DNA from: Thermoplasmata archaeon
Lineage (GTDB): Archaea > Thermoplasmatota > Thermoplasmata > Methanomassiliicoccales > Methanomethylophilaceae
Reading direction: 5' to 3'
DNA: 64,000 nt
Assembly: GCA_015063125.1 (NCBI GenBank)
Contig: SUTB01000003.1
Coordinates: 1 to 64,000 of the forward strand
A program made the translations under genes and the position numbers. Below, one piece after another: positions 2,951-24,290 of the stretch (position 1 is the stretch's first letter; every line of letters starts with the position of its first letter). Under the pieces are notes generated by a model. That model did no database searches. It saw only the letters and a list, made by a program, of their open reading frames with translations, and was not told where the DNA came from.

Positions 2951-3031
2951 CTTCACTTCACTTCAGAGGATGTTATCTCTGGCCACCATTTAACCGTTAT
3001 CATTATTCCCCATGACTGCATCCCTGTATCC

Positions 3032-3541
3032 ATGAGAGGGGACCTCCATACCCTGAAGAAAGTGTGCAGATACGCATCTGTCGTAATGCTGATCGGCGAG
3101 ATCGCATTCCTCGCCCTCACAGTTGCCGTCATCGCATTGGGGGCATTGTCCTTCTCGTCACCGGACATCCGTTCGATGTTCTCTGATCTTATCAAATGCG
3201 GAGGATCCGACATCTCGCTGATTTCAGGTACTCTGGAGATGGCGGTGGCGTTCCTTGCCATGTTCGTCACCGTGAAGGTGATCCATGACATCATGGCCTC
3301 CATCCAGAGGGAGCACAGCCCGTTCATGGAGGACACCCCTAAGGGATTCAAGCTCGTTTCCCTGACCTTCCTTGCGTCTGCGGTTCCCCTCACGATTCTT
3401 GAATACCTATGCAGGGGCGATGAGATAATCGCGATCTGCATCCTGCTGGTATGCGCCCTTATCTCGGTCGTGATGTACTGCCTGACCATAATCTTCCGTT
3501 ACGGATTCCTGCTGCAGGACGAATCGGACCACACGTTGTGA
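3032..3541 (+). CDS. DUF2975-like four-helix membrane protein
   Basis: About 169 residues with four hydrophobic segments (near 15-40, 65-90, 110-130 and 135-160). It matches the pattern of DUF2975 proteins, which in bacteria and archaea sit directly before a YozG-type Cro/C1 repressor, as here: the next gene starts four bases after this stop. The function is unknown; the pairing suggests a membrane partner or target of the regulator. The frame is open far upstream over the opposite-strand FNT gene, but the ATG at 3032 follows a TATA-like stretch (CATTTAAC near 2990) at suitable distance, and only from there does the protein look real. Confidence 0.72.
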   Translation: MRGDLHTLKKVCRYASVVMLIGEIAFLALTVAVIALGALSFSSPDIRSMFSDLIKCGGSDISLISGTLEMAVAFLAMFVTVKVIHDIMASIQREHSPFMEDTPKGFKLVSLTFLASAVPLTILEYLCRGDEIIAICILLVCALISVVMYCLTIIFRYGFLLQDESDHTL

Positions 3542-3545
3542 TACA

Positions 3546-3773
3546 ATGGCGATAATCCTCAGATTGGACAGGGTGATGGCGGACAGGAAGATGTCCCTCA
3601 ACGAGCTCGCCGAGAAGGTGGGCATCTCCAATGTCAATCTGTCGAACATCAAGACCGGGAAGATCTGCGCTATCAGATTCTCCACCCTGAACGGGATCTG
3701 CAAGGCCCTGGACTGTCAGCCCGGGGACATCCTCGAGTACATCGAGGAAGACGATTCAGACGCTGCCCTCTGA
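3546..3773 (+). CDS. Cro/C1 (XRE) family regulator, YozG-like
   Basis: A 75-residue protein that is almost only a helix-turn-helix domain: SLNELAEKVGISNVNLSN is the recognition unit, followed by the CKALDCQPGDILEY ending typical of YozG-type regulators that accompany DUF2975 proteins. It is co-transcribed with the DUF2975 gene. The last 18 bases overlap the 3' end of the convergent BASS transporter gene. It probably represses its own two-gene operon, by analogy with the family; no operator was identified. Confidence 0.88.
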   Translation: MAIILRLDRVMADRKMSLNELAEKVGISNVNLSNIKTGKICAIRFSTLNGICKALDCQPGDILEYIEEDDSDAAL

Positions 3774-18412: not shown

Positions 18413-19099
18413 TCATTTTTTACGGATCGAGCGAAGGAACTGCTTGTCCTCATCGCTCACACGGTAGGATTCGCAGATCTTCTGAATGGCCTTGTTATAC
18501 GTCCATTTGTCCATGTCGCTGTTACGCATCCTGTCCAATGTGGTTTCCGGGAACTTGACATAGCAGACGGATGCGGCCCAGGCTGCGCCCATCTTGTAGT
18601 AGTAGCCGTCATGGTCGTATCTCACGATATCATCCATGATGTCACCTACATGTTCCTCGTCTATGAAGTGCGACATGCGCAAAACAAGGGATACTCTCAT
18701 CCTGAACTCCTGGCCCGAATCGATGAGGGATGAGAAGTAATCGTACACTCTGTCCGACTCGCTCTTGCGGAACTTCCAGGCCTGACAGAACGAATCGCAG
18801 GTGGCCCAATTGTCGATATAGCCCAGGAAACCTTCCGTATAGCCTATCCTGCGCTCGGCATCCATGGGTGCGGTGGCGACCACCAGCCCCTTCAGGACCT
18901 CCTCCTCGTAACAGGTCGGAGTCTCTTCGAGGAACGCTTCCCAGTCGTCCTTGGTGATCTGCTTGGCAATCTTCTTCAGCGTCGGAGCCCTCACTCCGAT
19001 TATACCTTCCTTCCCCGGGATCAGCTTGGAATTGAATCTGGCGTACTCCTCCTCGGCGGACTCCTTCAGCATTGAACGGTAATCAATCAAGGAACACAC
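18413..19099 (-). CDS. AlkD-like DNA alkylation repair protein
   Basis: About 228 residues forming an all-helical HEAT-like superhelix (PF08713), recognisable from the N-terminal KLIPGKEGIIGVRAPTLKKIAK and the central WATCDSFCQAWKF blocks. Members bind DNA with damaged bases and act as glycosylases on N3/N7-alkylpurines. The gene overlaps the 3' end of ogt by 17 bases, so both alkylation repair genes are one operon. The start is uncertain: GTG 19099, TTG 19090 (better spaced behind GGAGGGT) or ATG 19072. Confidence 0.85.
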   Translation of the reverse strand: MCSLIDYRSMLKESAEEEYARFNSKLIPGKEGIIGVRAPTLKKIAKQITKDDWEAFLEETPTCYEEEVLKGLVVATAPMDAERRIGYTEGFLGYIDNWATCDSFCQAWKFRKSESDRVYDYFSSLIDSGQEFRMRVSLVLRMSHFIDEEHVGDIMDDIVRYDHDGYYYKMGAAWAASVCYVKFPETTLDRMRNSDMDKWTYNKAIQKICESYRVSDEDKQFLRSIRKK

Positions 19100-19559
19100 C
19101 CTCCAGATTGAGGAGCTTCTTCTTCATCGACGTGCCTCCGGCATAGTTGCCGTAGCCTCCGCTGGAAGGGACCACGCGATGGCACGGCACCAGGATCGGC
19201 AACGGGTTCTCTGCGCATGCCATGCCGACTGCGCGCACTGATGTCGGGTATCCGATGGCTTCAGCGACCTGCTTGTAGGTGCGGACCTCCCCGTAGGGTA
19301 TCCTGTTGAGCTCCTCCATCACCCTGGACCTGAAATCGGAACCATCGTAACGCAAATCCAGATCGAATTCCGTCCTCTTCCCTGCGAGATACTCATTGAT
19401 CTGTTTCGCGGCCGATACCAAAGCAGGCGTTTCGGACTGATCCATCGGCGGGAGGTTATCGCACGGCAGGAAGACTCCTGTGATCATGCCTTCGCCGTCC
19501 TCAGTGATACTGATGGTCCCCAGCAGGGTGAAGAAGGATGAGATGCACGGCCCGCGCAT
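19083..19559 (-). CDS. ogt: Methylated-DNA--protein-cysteine methyltransferase
   Basis: A 158-residue suicide repair protein that takes methyl groups from O6-methylguanine. The active-site motif PILVPCHRVV holds the acceptor Cys, and the helix-turn-helix block YGEVRTYKQVAEAIGYPTSVRAVG precedes it. The N-terminal domain is short. It leads the ogt-alkD operon. The ATG at 19559 sits about 26 bases from CTTTAAAATC, so it is probably leaderless. A methylotroph that handles reactive methyl donors has an obvious use for such a pair. Confidence 0.94.
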   Translation of the reverse strand: MRGPCISSFFTLLGTISITEDGEGMITGVFLPCDNLPPMDQSETPALVSAAKQINEYLAGKRTEFDLDLRYDGSDFRSRVMEELNRIPYGEVRTYKQVAEAIGYPTSVRAVGMACAENPLPILVPCHRVVPSSGGYGNYAGGTSMKKKLLNLEGVFLD

Positions 19560-19891
19560 ACCTTCTGTATCCTTATCGTGATTTTAAAGGGTACTTAGTT
19601 AATCCGCTTAATTGACACTTATTCTTGCATCTCATTTTACTGCCGCATGGTTTTTTGTCATAGCATTCTTATCAGATTTATCATCCAATCATAGATTAAG
19701 TTTTAATACAGTATTTTTAGAATATATTGGATAAATCATCCACTATTTCAGATGTACAATGTCTATTTATCGAGAAAATTAACAGGTTTAACCGCCGAAT
19801 TTAATATTTTTCTCTCAATTTTATCGTTGTATAGTAACACGAATTTAGAATTAGTAATACTTTAATACAGCGGACATATTTTCCTACAAAC
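19560..19891 (+). promoter_or_regulatory. AT-rich promoter region of the ABC importer operon
   Basis: No gene fits in these 332 bases. TTTAATACAG occurs twice, at 19702-19711 and 19861-19870. The second copy is centred 27 bases before the ATG of the binding-protein gene and is its probable TATA box. GATTTATC-x2-CCAAT near 19674 and ATTGGATAAATC at 19726-19737 form an imperfect dyad that would suit a metal- or chelate-responsive repressor. The left end carries the leaderless promoter of ogt. Confidence 0.5.
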
Positions 19892-21010
19892 ATGAATCAA
19901 AAAGTGATTGCCATCATCGCGGTCATCATCATCGCCGTTGCGGCGGTAGGTGTCGCGGCAGTAGTTCTATCAAACGATGATGATTCAGGAGACAGGATTA
20001 TCACTGACATTCGCGGAAGGGAGGTTAGTATTCCCCAGGACGTGAAGAAAATCGTTTGCGTCAGCGCTGGAGCGCTGAGAATGGTCAGCTATTTCGATAT
20101 CGACCGCGTCGTCGGAATAGACTCCATGGACAAAGGAACTACCGGTTCCCCCGCTAACTACGATCTTGCGACATACCGCGTTGCATACGCCAATAAGATC
20201 GAAAACATGATTGACGTCGGAGGAGCTAGTAGCTTCAAGGAGATATCCGAGACTGGCGCCGATGTTATTTTCACTACCACTGAGGGAGTGGAAACCCTAA
20301 ACGACATCCAAAACAAAACAGGAATACCGGTTATCGGACTTAGGGCAGAGGTATATTTCGATCTGGACTCTATTCAGACATTCTCCAAGCAGATGAGGCT
20401 CATCGGACAGGTCCTCAAGATGAACGACAGGGCCGAGGAACTCGTAAAGGGAATCAACGACCTGTTCACCGAACTTGAGACATACAAGCTGTCCGCAACC
20501 GATGCGGATCTGAAGAAGTCATACGTCTGCGGACTGATGACCGGAATGACTGGTAACTTCTACAAGACCACTGGCCACTTCCTGCCCTTCTCTACCACTG
20601 TAGGACTAAACATCGCACCTGATATCGCCCAATCCCCCTACATCATCAACCAGAAGGACATCATTGACCAAGATCCCGCCTACATCTTCGTGGACATCTC
20701 CAACTACGCATCGTGCATGTCGACAATGAAGACCGACAAGGACACATTAGGCGATGTTTCTGCCATACAGAACGGCAACGTATACACGCTGCTTCCGTAC
20801 AAGTACTACAATACCAACTACGAAAACGAATTCATCGATTGTTTCGCTGTTGGAAAGGTACTTGCACCCAGCATCTACGACTTCGATCTGGAGAAGAAGG
20901 CCAATGAGATCTTCCAGTTGTTCTTCCCAGGCACCACGATGACGCTCAGTTCGTATGCTGCCGCCATCGGACACAGCATCGGACAGGTGGGTCCTTCGGA
21001 ATACAAGTGA
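19892..21010 (+). CDS. ABC importer substrate-binding protein (Fe-chelate/B12 type)
   Basis: A 372-residue extracytoplasmic binding protein with an N-terminal hydrophobic anchor (about 5-27) rather than a lipobox. The fold is that of FepB/BtuF class III proteins: DIRGREVSIPQDVKKIVCVS at the start of lobe one, IDRVVGID, then GADVIFTT, and VSAIQNGNVYTL in lobe two. This family binds iron siderophores, haem, or corrinoids. It is the first gene of an apparent five-gene operon. Low-complexity signs are absent. The ligand cannot be told; a corrinoid would fit a methylotrophic methanogen and an iron chelate is equally possible. Confidence 0.9.
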   Translation: MNQKVIAIIAVIIIAVAAVGVAAVVLSNDDDSGDRIITDIRGREVSIPQDVKKIVCVSAGALRMVSYFDIDRVVGIDSMDKGTTGSPANYDLATYRVAYANKIENMIDVGGASSFKEISETGADVIFTTTEGVETLNDIQNKTGIPVIGLRAEVYFDLDSIQTFSKQMRLIGQVLKMNDRAEELVKGINDLFTELETYKLSATDADLKKSYVCGLMTGMTGNFYKTTGHFLPFSTTVGLNIAPDIAQSPYIINQKDIIDQDPAYIFVDISNYASCMSTMKTDKDTLGDVSAIQNGNVYTLLPYKYYNTNYENEFIDCFAVGKVLAPSIYDFDLEKKANEIFQLFFPGTTMTLSSYAAAIGHSIGQVGPSEYK

Positions 21011-21051
21011 TTCCATAAAATAACTTGAAACCTCTTCCCAAACCCCTTCCC

Positions 21052-22122
21052 ATGACTTATCCAGTGGTGGATCAAACGAACAGCAAGGAAAAGTATCTAA
21101 AAAGATCCAAACTCAGGGGATTCTCTATCCTGGCAGTACTGCTCTTCACGGTCCTCACGGTATTCATAACGCTGATAGCCGGGAACGCCAACCAGGACCT
21201 CGTTAAGATATTGGTGTCGTTATTCACCTTCGATCAATCGACCGTCGAAGGTCGCTTCGTCTGGTTGATAGACATGCCTATGATCGTGATCGCACTGATA
21301 GTCGGTGCGGGACTGTCCCTATCGGGTACTGTGATGCAATGCATCCTGAAGAACCCCTTGGCATCGCCCTACACACTTGGATTATCGAGTGCAGCGGCGT
21401 TCGGAGCAGCTTTTGCAATCATCTTCCTCGGATCGGGAAACAGCGCAATGGGATCGATTTCGATCGATGACCCGTTCATAACCATGGCATGCGCTTTCGT
21501 ATTCTCCATGTTGGCCACAGGAGCGATACTCGTTATGACGAAGCTCACCAATATCTCTGCAGAGACCATGGTCCTATCAGGTATCGCCATAGGGGCCATC
21601 TTCTCAGCCGGGCTCTCCCTAATGCAGTACTTCGCTGACTCGGTGCAACTATCGGCCATGGTGTCCTGGAGCTTCGGCGATCTGAACCATTCGGATTGGT
21701 TTTGGGATTTCGTAATGCTCCTTATACTGCTTCCTATAGCAGCCTATTTCTTCTTGAATAGATGGGACCTCAACTCACTTGATGCCGGTGATGAGGTCGC
21801 GAAAGGATTGGGAGTCAACACTGAGCGCTTCCGCACACTATCTCTGCTCATCACAGCTTTCCTCTCGGCCATGCTCGTGTCGAGATACGGCGTGATCGCT
21901 TTTATCGGTCTCATAGGTCCGCACATCGCCAGGATGATCGTCGGTAGCGATCACCGCTACCTCATACCGATGTCAATGGCCCTAGGAGGATGCATACTCC
22001 TCGTGGCCAACTGCGTTGCGGCTAACATAGTCCGCCCGATGGTCCTTCCCGTGGGATTACTGACATCGTTGCTGGGAGGGCCCATGTTCATCTATCTACT
22101 GGCCAGGAGGTACAGGAGATGA
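21052..22122 (+). CDS. FecCD-type ABC importer permease
   Basis: A permease of about 356 residues with about ten helices, matching the BtuC/FecCD family. Landmarks are AGLSLSGTVMQCILKNPLASPYTLG near the N-terminus and FIGLIGPHIARMIVGSDHRYLIP near the C-terminus, the latter contacting the ATPase. I chose ATG 21052 (MTYPVVDQ); a TTG at 21025 is in frame. CATAAAATAA about 33 bases upstream could be a second promoter. The stop overlaps the ATPase start as ATGA. Confidence 0.93.
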   Translation: MTYPVVDQTNSKEKYLKRSKLRGFSILAVLLFTVLTVFITLIAGNANQDLVKILVSLFTFDQSTVEGRFVWLIDMPMIVIALIVGAGLSLSGTVMQCILKNPLASPYTLGLSSAAAFGAAFAIIFLGSGNSAMGSISIDDPFITMACAFVFSMLATGAILVMTKLTNISAETMVLSGIAIGAIFSAGLSLMQYFADSVQLSAMVSWSFGDLNHSDWFWDFVMLLILLPIAAYFFLNRWDLNSLDAGDEVAKGLGVNTERFRTLSLLITAFLSAMLVSRYGVIAFIGLIGPHIARMIVGSDHRYLIPMSMALGGCILLVANCVAANIVRPMVLPVGLLTSLLGGPMFIYLLARRYRR

Positions 22123-22871
22123 CCTTCAGTGCAGAGCACATCTCCCACTCATACAGAAGCCATAAGGTTCTGGAAGATGTTTCTATAAGGCTGGATAAAG
22201 GGGAACTGATGACGATTCTCGGTCCCAATGGCGTGGGGAAGACCACGCTCCTGAAAAGTCTTGTCGGGATCTACCCTGGAAGCGTTGAGATACTAACGCT
22301 TGACGGGAAAGACATCACCAACATGGGCCCCAGAGAAAGGGCCAAGGTCATCAGCTATGTGCCCCAGCGCTCCCACGTATCGGGTTCCACCGTATTCGAA
22401 TCTATTCTCCTGGGAAGAAGGCCCTACATCTCTTGGGATATCGCAGAAGCCGATCTAGACAAGGTCTCAGAAACGATATCCCTGATGGGGTTGGACGAGC
22501 TCAGCGAGAAGAAGGTCGATGCCATAAGCGGGGGAGAATACCAGCTCGTCCAGATAGCAAGGGCGTTGGTCCAGGACCCGAAGGTGATCCTATTGGACGA
22601 GCCCACGAACAACCTCGATGTCTCCAACCAGGAGAATGTCCTCAAGGTATTGAGGCAGACGGTCACGGAAAGAGGCCTCTGCGCCATCATGACCAACCAC
22701 GACATCAACCTCTCAGCAAGACATTCGGACCGCATAGTCATGCTGAAATCCGGGAGAATACAGATCTCAGGAGGGAAAGAGGTCATAACACCAGAATCCA
22801 TCAAGACAGTGTACGGGATGGATGTGGAAGTAGAGATCGTGCACGGCAACCCAATCATAATGCCGATATGA
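22119..22871 (+). CDS. ABC importer ATPase (FecE/BtuD type)
   Basis: A 250-residue nucleotide-binding subunit. Walker A is GPNGVGKTT, the signature is ISGGEYQLVQIARAL (SGGE instead of SGGQ, common in this subfamily), Walker B is VILLDEPTNNLD, and the switch histidine is in MTNHDIN. It powers uptake of the chelate delivered by the upstream binding protein. It is translationally coupled to the permease and is followed after nine bases by the first methyltransferase. Confidence 0.95.
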   Translation: MTFSAEHISHSYRSHKVLEDVSIRLDKGELMTILGPNGVGKTTLLKSLVGIYPGSVEILTLDGKDITNMGPRERAKVISYVPQRSHVSGSTVFESILLGRRPYISWDIAEADLDKVSETISLMGLDELSEKKVDAISGGEYQLVQIARALVQDPKVILLDEPTNNLDVSNQENVLKVLRQTVTERGLCAIMTNHDINLSARHSDRIVMLKSGRIQISGGKEVITPESIKTVYGMDVEVEIVHGNPIIMPI

Positions 22872-22880
22872 AGTGATAAT

Positions 22881-23525
22881 ATGGTAACACAGCAGGAACA
22901 CGAGAAAGCCCAAAAGGAGTTCTTCAACAAGATTTGTTATGAATGGGACAAAACATTCGACTCTAAGAGAAAGGAACAGAACCAATTGGTGGATGAGATA
23001 AAAATCGGAGAGCACGATAGAATCTTGGATGTGGGTACCGGGATAGGTGTGATGATACCATCTTACCTGGAGAAACTATCCGACGGAAGTGTGACGGCGA
23101 TAGACTACTCGGAGAATATGATCTCCGTCGCGAAACAGAGGTTCCCTAAGGACAAGTTCCCTAATGTCGACCTGATTGCAATGAATCTTTACGACCTCCA
23201 ATCCGAAGACGAGTATGATCTGGTCGTATGCTACTCCTGTCTACCACACTTCTTCGATCACGACAGGGCAATAGAGGTCTTGGCCAACTCCCTAAAAGAA
23301 GAAGGGAGATTGGCTGTTTGCAACCTCAAGTACCACCATATGGCCCATGAGGAGATGAATGAGGACAGAAAGAAGATGATGGATCACATGCCTGAGCACA
23401 GGTTCTTGACCATCCCCCAGCTCCTAACAATCTGTGAGAAGCACGGCCTCCAGCTATCATATGCGGTGGATGACGAAGACCATACACTGATAATCGTCAA
23501 GAAAAAACCTGCTGAGAGGGTATGA
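22881..23525 (+). CDS. Class I SAM methyltransferase, first of a tandem pair
   Basis: A 214-residue methyltransferase with the SAM loop ILDVGTGIGVMIP and the acidic AIDYSENMI. The block VCYSCLPHFFDHDRA and a histidine/glutamate-rich stretch (HHMAHEEM) are shared in outline with the next gene. The C-terminus has a His/Asp cluster. It follows the ABC importer ATPase within nine bases, preceded by AAGTGATAAT as a possible Shine-Dalgarno, so it is part of the importer operon. The substrate is unknown; the context suggests the imported chelate or a tetrapyrrole. Confidence 0.85.
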   Translation: MVTQQEHEKAQKEFFNKICYEWDKTFDSKRKEQNQLVDEIKIGEHDRILDVGTGIGVMIPSYLEKLSDGSVTAIDYSENMISVAKQRFPKDKFPNVDLIAMNLYDLQSEDEYDLVVCYSCLPHFFDHDRAIEVLANSLKEEGRLAVCNLKYHHMAHEEMNEDRKKMMDHMPEHRFLTIPQLLTICEKHGLQLSYAVDDEDHTLIIVKKKPAERV

Positions 23526-24160
23526 TGTTATCGGCCAAGACCGAAAAATTCCTTTCTGGAAGGAGACCGAACGAGAAGCAACAGGAGTTCTTCGATGCCC
23601 ATGCCGATGTTTGGGACGAGATCAATCGTAACGACCCGAAGAAACTTGATTACATCATCGGACTTCTGGAACTGAACGGTGACGAAACGATACTGGATGT
23701 CGGTACGGGCACAGGCGTCATGATCCCGTATTACCTTGAGACACTGAAAGAAGGCAGCGTCACGGCATTGGACTATTCTAAGCGGATGATCGAGAAAGCA
23801 TCTTCGAAATACCCTCCCTCCGCCAAACTCAGATATGTTGTCTCCGATGTGTACAAACTACCTTCAATGAACGGGTTTGACGTGGCCGTATGCTACTCGT
23901 GTTTCCCACATTTTCCAGATCCTTTGAGGGCCTTGGTCACCATTTCGGAGACTCTAAAGAAAGGCGGCAGACTGATGATTGCGCATTCCAGCTCCAGGGA
24001 TCACATCAACAACGTTCACAGCCACGGAGGGGAGGAGATAAGCAACGATTACCTTCCGGAGATTGGGATAATGTCCGAGCTGTTTGTGGAAAGTGGTCTT
24101 GAGACCGAATTCACGCGCGATGACGACGAGTATTACATAATCATAGGTAGTAAATCCTGA
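23522..24160 (+). CDS. Class I SAM methyltransferase, second of a tandem pair
   Basis: A 212-residue paralogue of the preceding protein: ILDVGTGTGVMIPYYLE, ALDYSKRMI and VCYSCFPHFPDPLRA match it closely, showing tandem duplication and divergence. The region after motif IV reads HSHGGEEISNDYLP, a likely metal- or substrate-binding loop. The ATG overlaps the stop of the first gene (ATGATG), so the two proteins are made together and may form a heterodimer. A GTCAC/GTGAC hairpin right after the stop may end the operon. Confidence 0.85.
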   Translation: MMLSAKTEKFLSGRRPNEKQQEFFDAHADVWDEINRNDPKKLDYIIGLLELNGDETILDVGTGTGVMIPYYLETLKEGSVTALDYSKRMIEKASSKYPPSAKLRYVVSDVYKLPSMNGFDVAVCYSCFPHFPDPLRALVTISETLKKGGRLMIAHSSSRDHINNVHSHGGEEISNDYLPEIGIMSELFVESGLETEFTRDDDEYYIIIGSKS

Positions 24161-24290
24161 GTCACACACCGTTCGTGACATGAGTGCTGTTAAAGATGGA
24201 TAAATCTGTTCACCACACAAATACGCCCCCAATAGTGGTCGAGAATAGCTTTTTCTATGGCGTCGCCGATAGTATCGCTGAGGTTACATC

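Follow-up and report, generated by a model that had tools for sequence, protein, structure and literature searches.

A candidate nickel importer operon of a Thermoplasmata archaeon with two SAM-dependent methyltransferase genes

Why would an importer be encoded together with two methyltransferases? The question is raised by an operon on the + strand (19892-24160) of a 64,000-nt stretch of DNA, here called the window, from the Thermoplasmata archaeon assembly GCA_015063125.1 (contig SUTB01000003.1, our C2), a ~99% complete, 1.65-Mb genome of a methanogen-type gut archaeon; the nearest named relatives of the window genes are in the Methanomassiliicoccaceae/Methanomethylophilaceae. The operon holds genes for a substrate-binding protein (SBP), a FecCD permease (PERM), an ATP-binding cassette (ABC) ATPase (ATP) and two S-adenosylmethionine (SAM)-dependent methyltransferases (MT1 and MT2; Table 1). 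A preliminary description had seen here an importer and two paralogous methyltransferases in one operon, and we confirmed all five open reading frames and their Pfam domains: Peripla_BP_2, FecCD and ABC_tran score above cut-off, and both methyltransferases match Methyltransf_11/25/31. By gene content this is a class III (FecCD/BtuCDF-type) ABC importer, with a predicted role in transport.

The genes are closely packed. PERM and ATPase, and likewise MT1 and MT2, overlap by four nt (22119-22122 and 23522-23525), and nine nt separate ATPase from MT1, as had been described, but the claim that all gaps are of nine bases or less fails between SBP and PERM, which lie 14 nt apart (TTG start at 21025). 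Chance does not account for this arrangement of genes: it is maintained throughout the order, and the MT1-MT2 tandem is found again in a second genus. The best explanation overall, to which we would give an even chance, is that the operon specifies a NikR-controlled nickel importer whose methyltransferases act in the cell on a nickel-carrying ligand.

A NikR-type operator and the likely metal

The published NikR operator reads GTGTTAC-[N13/14]-GTAACAC or reversed and spans 27-28 bp (PMC545781). Promoters of the archaeal operons carry paired 7-bp half-sites 13 bp apart, and the site in the window departs from the published half-sites at one position. A degenerate form, GTRWYAC-N13-GTRWYAC, matches perfectly at three places in the whole 1.65-Mb genome, and its reversed control at none. 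One match precedes the window SBP, another (C3:26304) precedes a second SBP-FecCD-ATPase-methyltransferase operon adjoining larC, and the third lies between convergent genes ~2.5 kb from nikR, while the other FecCD stretches scanned in the genome gave no operator match at up to one mismatch. As the degenerate form was picked after viewing the promoters, the comparison was repeated with the published half-sites only. With up to two mismatches allowed, sites were present in 10 of 21 orthologous promoters and 7 of 369 others (p = 3e-10, as with all operator p-values optimistic, because orthologous promoters are not fully independent), and with up to three in 16 of 21 and 15 of 369. Several of the best "other" promoters belong to CbiM (L063) or are divergent promoters that share a site.

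Perfect sites were found in 8 of 20 relative genomes. Many of the perfect sites in these 20 relatives precede genes for binding proteins, a CooC-like ATPase, CbiM or further methyltransferases; a few (e.g. L180 and L189) have no evident nickel link. At L058 a one-mismatch site lies ~210 bp upstream of a methyltransferase gene linked to cofactor F430 genes. NikR itself is encoded in the genome (NF003381, 143 bits against a cut-off of 105), and a census of its nickel transporters gave one CbiM system, with no NiCoT and no NikA (no TIGR02294 match) found in a search of the genome. From this context we consider it probable that the operon is NikR-controlled through the putative operator and that nickel is the metal. 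The preliminary description had named iron chelates, haem and corrinoids as cargoes of this importer class and had left the metal open; the operator, the NikR gene and the nickel-gene neighbours described below now point to nickel.

Methyltransferase relatives and their neighbours

Among 147 genomes of the order, a profile search detected the methyltransferase family in 29, mostly as an SBP-PERM-ATP-MT operon with a single methyltransferase that is ~45-56% identical to MT2 and 31-40% to MT1. MT1 and MT2 are indeed paralogues (33% identity over 211 aa, E = 5e-38) that share a VCYSC-x-PHF block and differ in the acceptor loop, MT1 lacking R159 and H166 and having instead its own conserved loop, YHHM...HMPEHR. 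In the tree, MT2 clusters with six of these single methyltransferases (support 98/96), and MT1 forms a long-branched pair with its orthologue from a different genus (G137; support 100/100), with a deeper placement that is unsure. MT2 represents the ancestral enzyme, and MT1 is an additional, derived copy. The G137 locus keeps the same gene order until its contig runs out at the beginning of MT2 (73.6% DNA identity), which makes at least two occurrences of the five-gene version. MT1 is intact and under constraint: the idea that it is a decaying copy was rejected because its intact orthologue in G137 is 69% identical in amino acids (dN 0.24, dS saturated). A general rule by which the pair is the system was rejected as well, since relatives carry one methyltransferase, orthologous to MT2. 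The methyltransferases had also been called "fused-on", which does not apply within the window, where the genes are separate and adjacent, but is apt for two relatives (genomes G043 and G022) with ATPase and methyltransferase in one open frame (L053 3680-5086, 468 aa, and L056 8178-10562).

MT1 and MT2 belong to the class I SAM-dependent methyltransferase superfamily, and methyl transfer is their predicted activity. All 56 members have D59, G63 and D84 of the SAM motif; H130 and H155 are conserved in 55, H166 in 53, and C124 and N163 in 49, within a family signature CYSxFPHF ... H(S/P/T)xxR/KxxxNxxH. The confident structure model of MT2 (predicted local distance difference test, pLDDT, 94) has a plain class I fold, which matched many solved class I methyltransferases at TM 0.6-0.75; sequence and fold searches of the PDB with the methyltransferases returned generic class I enzymes and no substrate hint. 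Assignment to a named family was rejected, the NCBIfam and Pfam matches being sub-threshold or generic only: both proteins fall below every curated NCBIfam cut-off (including those of BioC, UbiE, UbiG, CpaM, DVU_1556 and ArsM), their best scores of 62 and 51 bits comparing with a BioC cut-off of 185. They thus have the Rossmann fold and SAM motif in common with BioC, UbiE, CpaM, DVU_1556 and ArsM, but differ from these families by their own signature and by scores under the cut-offs.

A scan of named genomes added relatives from Clostridia, Chloroflexota, Spirochaetota, delta-proteobacterial groups, Armatimonadota and Bacteroidota. An importer gene within 500 bp on the same strand accompanied 27 of 30 archaeal members, 14 of 23 strong bacterial members and 1 of 51 weaker methyltransferases of the same scan, the last scored with the same importer-recognition panel, which was drawn partly from these loci and favours the strong set. 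The contrast between bacterial members and weaker methyltransferases (p = 2e-8) is the fairer test, given the kinship among the archaeal loci. These counts strongly support a coupling of importer and methyltransferase; the preliminary description would have been contradicted by homologues lying mostly away from importers, and in both domains most lie beside one.

The importers concerned are of several unrelated classes. FecCD genes are neighbours in L077 and, at greater distance, in L096, and ZnuA/ABC-3 genes in L080, L081, L083, L085, L086 and L097. An S-component of the energy-coupling factor (ECF) type (PF12822) overlaps or abuts the methyltransferase in L074, L075, L078, L079, L089 and L090, three of these being Pfam-confirmed, and NikA-type neighbours occur in L087 and the archaeal L159. 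Other neighbours are genes of nickel or tetrapyrrole metabolism: nikR lies directly upstream of the methyltransferase in L082 (NF003381 above cut-off), a CbiM-like stretch and a CooC-like ATPase beside it in L094, the F430 genes cfbC-cfbA-cfbE beside it in L058 and L066, and CbiT-CbiJ-CbiB-like genes, recognised by eye, near it in L093. The deltaproteobacterial operon of L077 (3661-8591) runs FmdE, methyltransferase, SBP, FecCD, ATPase, methyltransferase, and is an independent case of two methyltransferases, here from different families.

A second METHYLTRANSFERASE family is represented in L043, L075 (11779), L118, L142, L186, L187 (a tandem pair) and L190. Its members are 27-54% alike mutually, more than they are to MT1/MT2, and they too occur with NikR-type sites, NikABC-type genes or FecCD operons, so the pairing of what appears to be nickel-type import with a SAM methyltransferase is not limited to one family. 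Second-family genes behind NikR-type sites and dockerin-like binding-protein genes were seen in L187 1-1649 (G027), L186 and L179 (G067), L178 and L185 (G095) and L190 (G067). A more remote relative of this family is the methyltransferase of the C3 operon (L047 5296-11722, G000:C3:22295-28721), where the SBP-FecCD-ATPase genes behind the NikR box end in this different SAM methyltransferase and adjoin larC and a probable larB.

How the methyltransferases might act

In the mechanism we favour, nickel scarcity would take NikR off the operator at 19834-19860 and all five genes would be transcribed. The class III importer would then take up nickel, most likely complexed with a small organic ligand, the binding protein and permease bringing the complex in and the methyltransferases acting in the cytosol next to the ATPase. 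There a nickel-binding group of the ligand would be methylated at the active site with its conserved Cys and His residues, which would loosen the hold of the ligand and let nickel pass to nickel-insertion proteins. To ligand methylation as the step itself we would give slightly less than an even chance. MT1, with its His-rich acceptor loop, would probably divide the labour with MT2 by serving a second ligand or a second methylation. Of the three roles first suggested for the pair, methylating the ligand and releasing metal from it are thus combined here, and synthesis of a chelator stays as a rival.

Several observations weigh against this mechanism. ABC-3 importers usually carry bare metal ions, leaving no organic ligand to methylate. 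Some family members (L076, L091, L092 and L095) are near neither importers nor nickel genes, and the archaeal operons L053, L064, L150 and L155 have no clear operator. Among the candidate active-site residues, C127 is largely limited to archaeal members, and H130 occupies a common position in the class I superfamily and is for that reason weak evidence by itself. The nearest solved relative of SBP is TM0189 (2etv), for which we found no known ligand; Ni-bound CeuE, MolA-like proteins and siderophore binders are further away (TMq ~0.5-0.7). Sequence profiles call SBP an iron/siderophore protein, and the top-scoring profiles for the importer parts bear the names of iron/siderophore or B12 transporters.

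The methyltransferases could instead build the nickel ligand, either a methylated compound or an aminocarboxypropyl product as made by nicotianamine-synthase-like enzymes, which would be exported, bind nickel and return through the importer. Such a route would explain the company that the enzyme keeps with many importer classes, and it has a parallel in opine-type zincophore operons (CntL/CntM type), which likewise link FecCD or Opp metal importers to SAM-dependent enzymes and in some cases include a further class I methyltransferase (PMC7438024). At the same time, the cassette has no exporter or other biosynthetic gene; a search confined to the operon found no opine dehydrogenase, exporter, CntL-like or CntM-like gene, and fusion to an importer ATPase, as in the two relatives, would put the enzyme in the wrong place for synthesis, so that we regard this explanation as unlikely. 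That same fusion, to the C-terminus of the ATPase, would suit a protein that binds nickel through the conserved C124, H130, H155 and H166 and uses SAM binding as a signal, either taking nickel at the ATPase or closing the importer once nickel is abundant, a role that C-terminal regulatory domains have in some other importers, and the position beside the nickel-insertion genes cfbA and the CooC-like ATPase would fit as well. A carrier or gate is nevertheless distinctly unlikely in our view, given that the invariant SAM motif, the normal class I fold and the mostly separate genes fit a working enzyme.

Another reading has the importer salvage a tetrapyrrole of nickel or cobalt (F430 or corrinoid precursors) for modification by the methyltransferases. 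It would be in keeping with the cfbC-cfbA-cfbE neighbours in two genomes (G038 and G048), with the CbiT-CbiJ-CbiB neighbours in L093 and with the transport of corrinoids by FecCD importers in other organisms. We downgraded it to improbable because bacterial members pair with other importers: ABC-3, NikA-type and ECF partners occur in Clostridia, Chloroflexota and Treponema, groups that do not produce F430. Moreover, the operator is of NikR type, and no B12 riboswitch was seen, although none was searched for. Finally, an ordinary iron-chelate importer might be co-transcribed by chance with housekeeping methyltransferases. The importer profile names would agree with this, as would the 17 FecCD permeases of the genome, most of which probably serve iron or corrinoids. 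However, linkage conserved across phyla, the fusions, the NikR-type operator and its absence near the other scanned FecCD loci of the genome make incidental linkage very improbable.

A broader form of the nickel-ligand reading can be put forward only tentatively, and we hold it rather doubtful: a dedicated SAM methyltransferase family, common to unrelated nickel importer classes of archaeal and bacterial anaerobes and in some cases fused to the ATPase, would chemically unload nickel from the imported ligand, with the second family doing likewise in parallel operons.

The cassette, known systems and meaning

In a conspecific genome (G131) with the same flanks (97-99% identity), 14 bp stand in place of 19597-24239. 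In a congener (G007) the two flanks lie ~0.9 kb apart, leaving too little room for the operon, and a profile search of G014 found no family member. The cassette has a GC content of ~49-50%, compared with 55-58% in its surroundings. The five-gene cassette appears to be a recent acquisition, gain being a simpler reading than loss in the conspecific. Its neighbours are unrelated, an ogt-type gene upstream on the - strand and a rubrerythrin gene downstream on the + strand. The former belongs to an overlapping DNA repair pair (18413-19559, - strand) of an ogt-type methylguanine methyltransferase and a DNA-alkylation-repair (PF08713) protein. The conspecific has, between its rubrerythrin gene and the next one, a 250-aa Cys-containing gene (L165 reverse complement 2953-3714) that the window lacks, a second presence/absence difference less than 1 kb from the cassette. 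Elsewhere in the genome (C4:244000-258000, C4:802000-816000 and C1:13000-26000; L045, L048 and L042), several binding proteins open with a dockerin-like GNANxDxxID stretch, and a single 992-aa open frame (L045 9238-12216; G000:C4, ~253.2-256.2 kb) encodes a FecCD permease together with a long extracellular part.

Table 1. Positions of the operon genes, operator and insertion in the window
Feature	Position	Strand	Basis
SBP, membrane-anchored substrate-binding protein (Peripla_BP_2, PF01497)	19892..21010	+	Pfam; fold nearest TM0189 (2etv)
FecCD permease (PERM, PF01032), TTG start, ATG at 21052	21025..22122	+	Pfam
ABC ATPase (PF00005); orthologue fused to methyltransferase in L053 and L056	22119..22871	+	Pfam
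MT1, derived SAM methyltransferase, His-rich acceptor loop; orthologue in G137	22881..23525	+	Pfam, alignment, tree
MT2, SAM methyltransferase, orthologue of the single methyltransferase in related operons	23522..24160	+	Pfam, tree
NikR-type operator (putative), GTAACAC-N13-GTAATAC, 31 bp 5' of SBP ATG	19834..19860	+	Consensus in PMC545781
Whole insertion, operon and promoter, missing from conspecific G131	19597..24239	+	Empty site (14 bp instead); GC

Among known systems, NiuBDE of Helicobacter pylori is a FecCD/CeuE-type importer of nickel (also cobalt) that has spread by horizontal transfer (PMC5140060), and the window operon resembles it in importer class and in its probable horizontal transfer. 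H. pylori CeuE, of which a structure with Ni-His exists, also matches SBP in fold, but is not the nearest match and is only distantly related (~14-15% identity, TMq ~0.6), and nickel transport by the window operon is a prediction. The text of the NiuBDE paper has no methyltransferase, whereas the window operon has two. The NikR regulon described for delta-proteobacteria (PMC545781) has two 7-bp half-sites with 13-14 bp spacing and a NikR gene, as does the window genome, but its targets are NikMNQO-type transporters and hydrogenase, whereas the predicted targets here are FecCD operons with methyltransferases. Archaeal nickel and cobalt transporters in a published survey are NikMNQO, NikABCDE and NiCoT (PMC2667541). 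Our search of the nickel-uptake literature, largely without subscription papers, found no methyltransferase in nickel uptake and no description of the family. FecCD-type nickel import is itself already known from NiuBDE; what the window operon would add is a new enzymatic partner for a class III importer of the nickel type.

Methyl-CoM reductase, hydrogenases and CO dehydrogenase all depend on nickel, and little is known of how methanogens acquire it (PMC10617489); as transporters induced by nickel limitation, PMC12350162 names unassigned ones only. The locus offers a candidate nickel importer, an operator and a family of ~210-aa enzymes, with the prediction that nickel comes in bound to a ligand and that enzymes then process this complex. 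Because the same enzymes accompany ECF, ABC-3 and NikABC-type importers in Clostridia, Chloroflexota and Treponema, identifying one substrate would help to annotate many "iron/siderophore" and "unknown ECF" operons of gut and sediment anaerobes. The relatives of MT1 and MT2 beside unrelated metal importers point to an undescribed enzyme step in nickel uptake.

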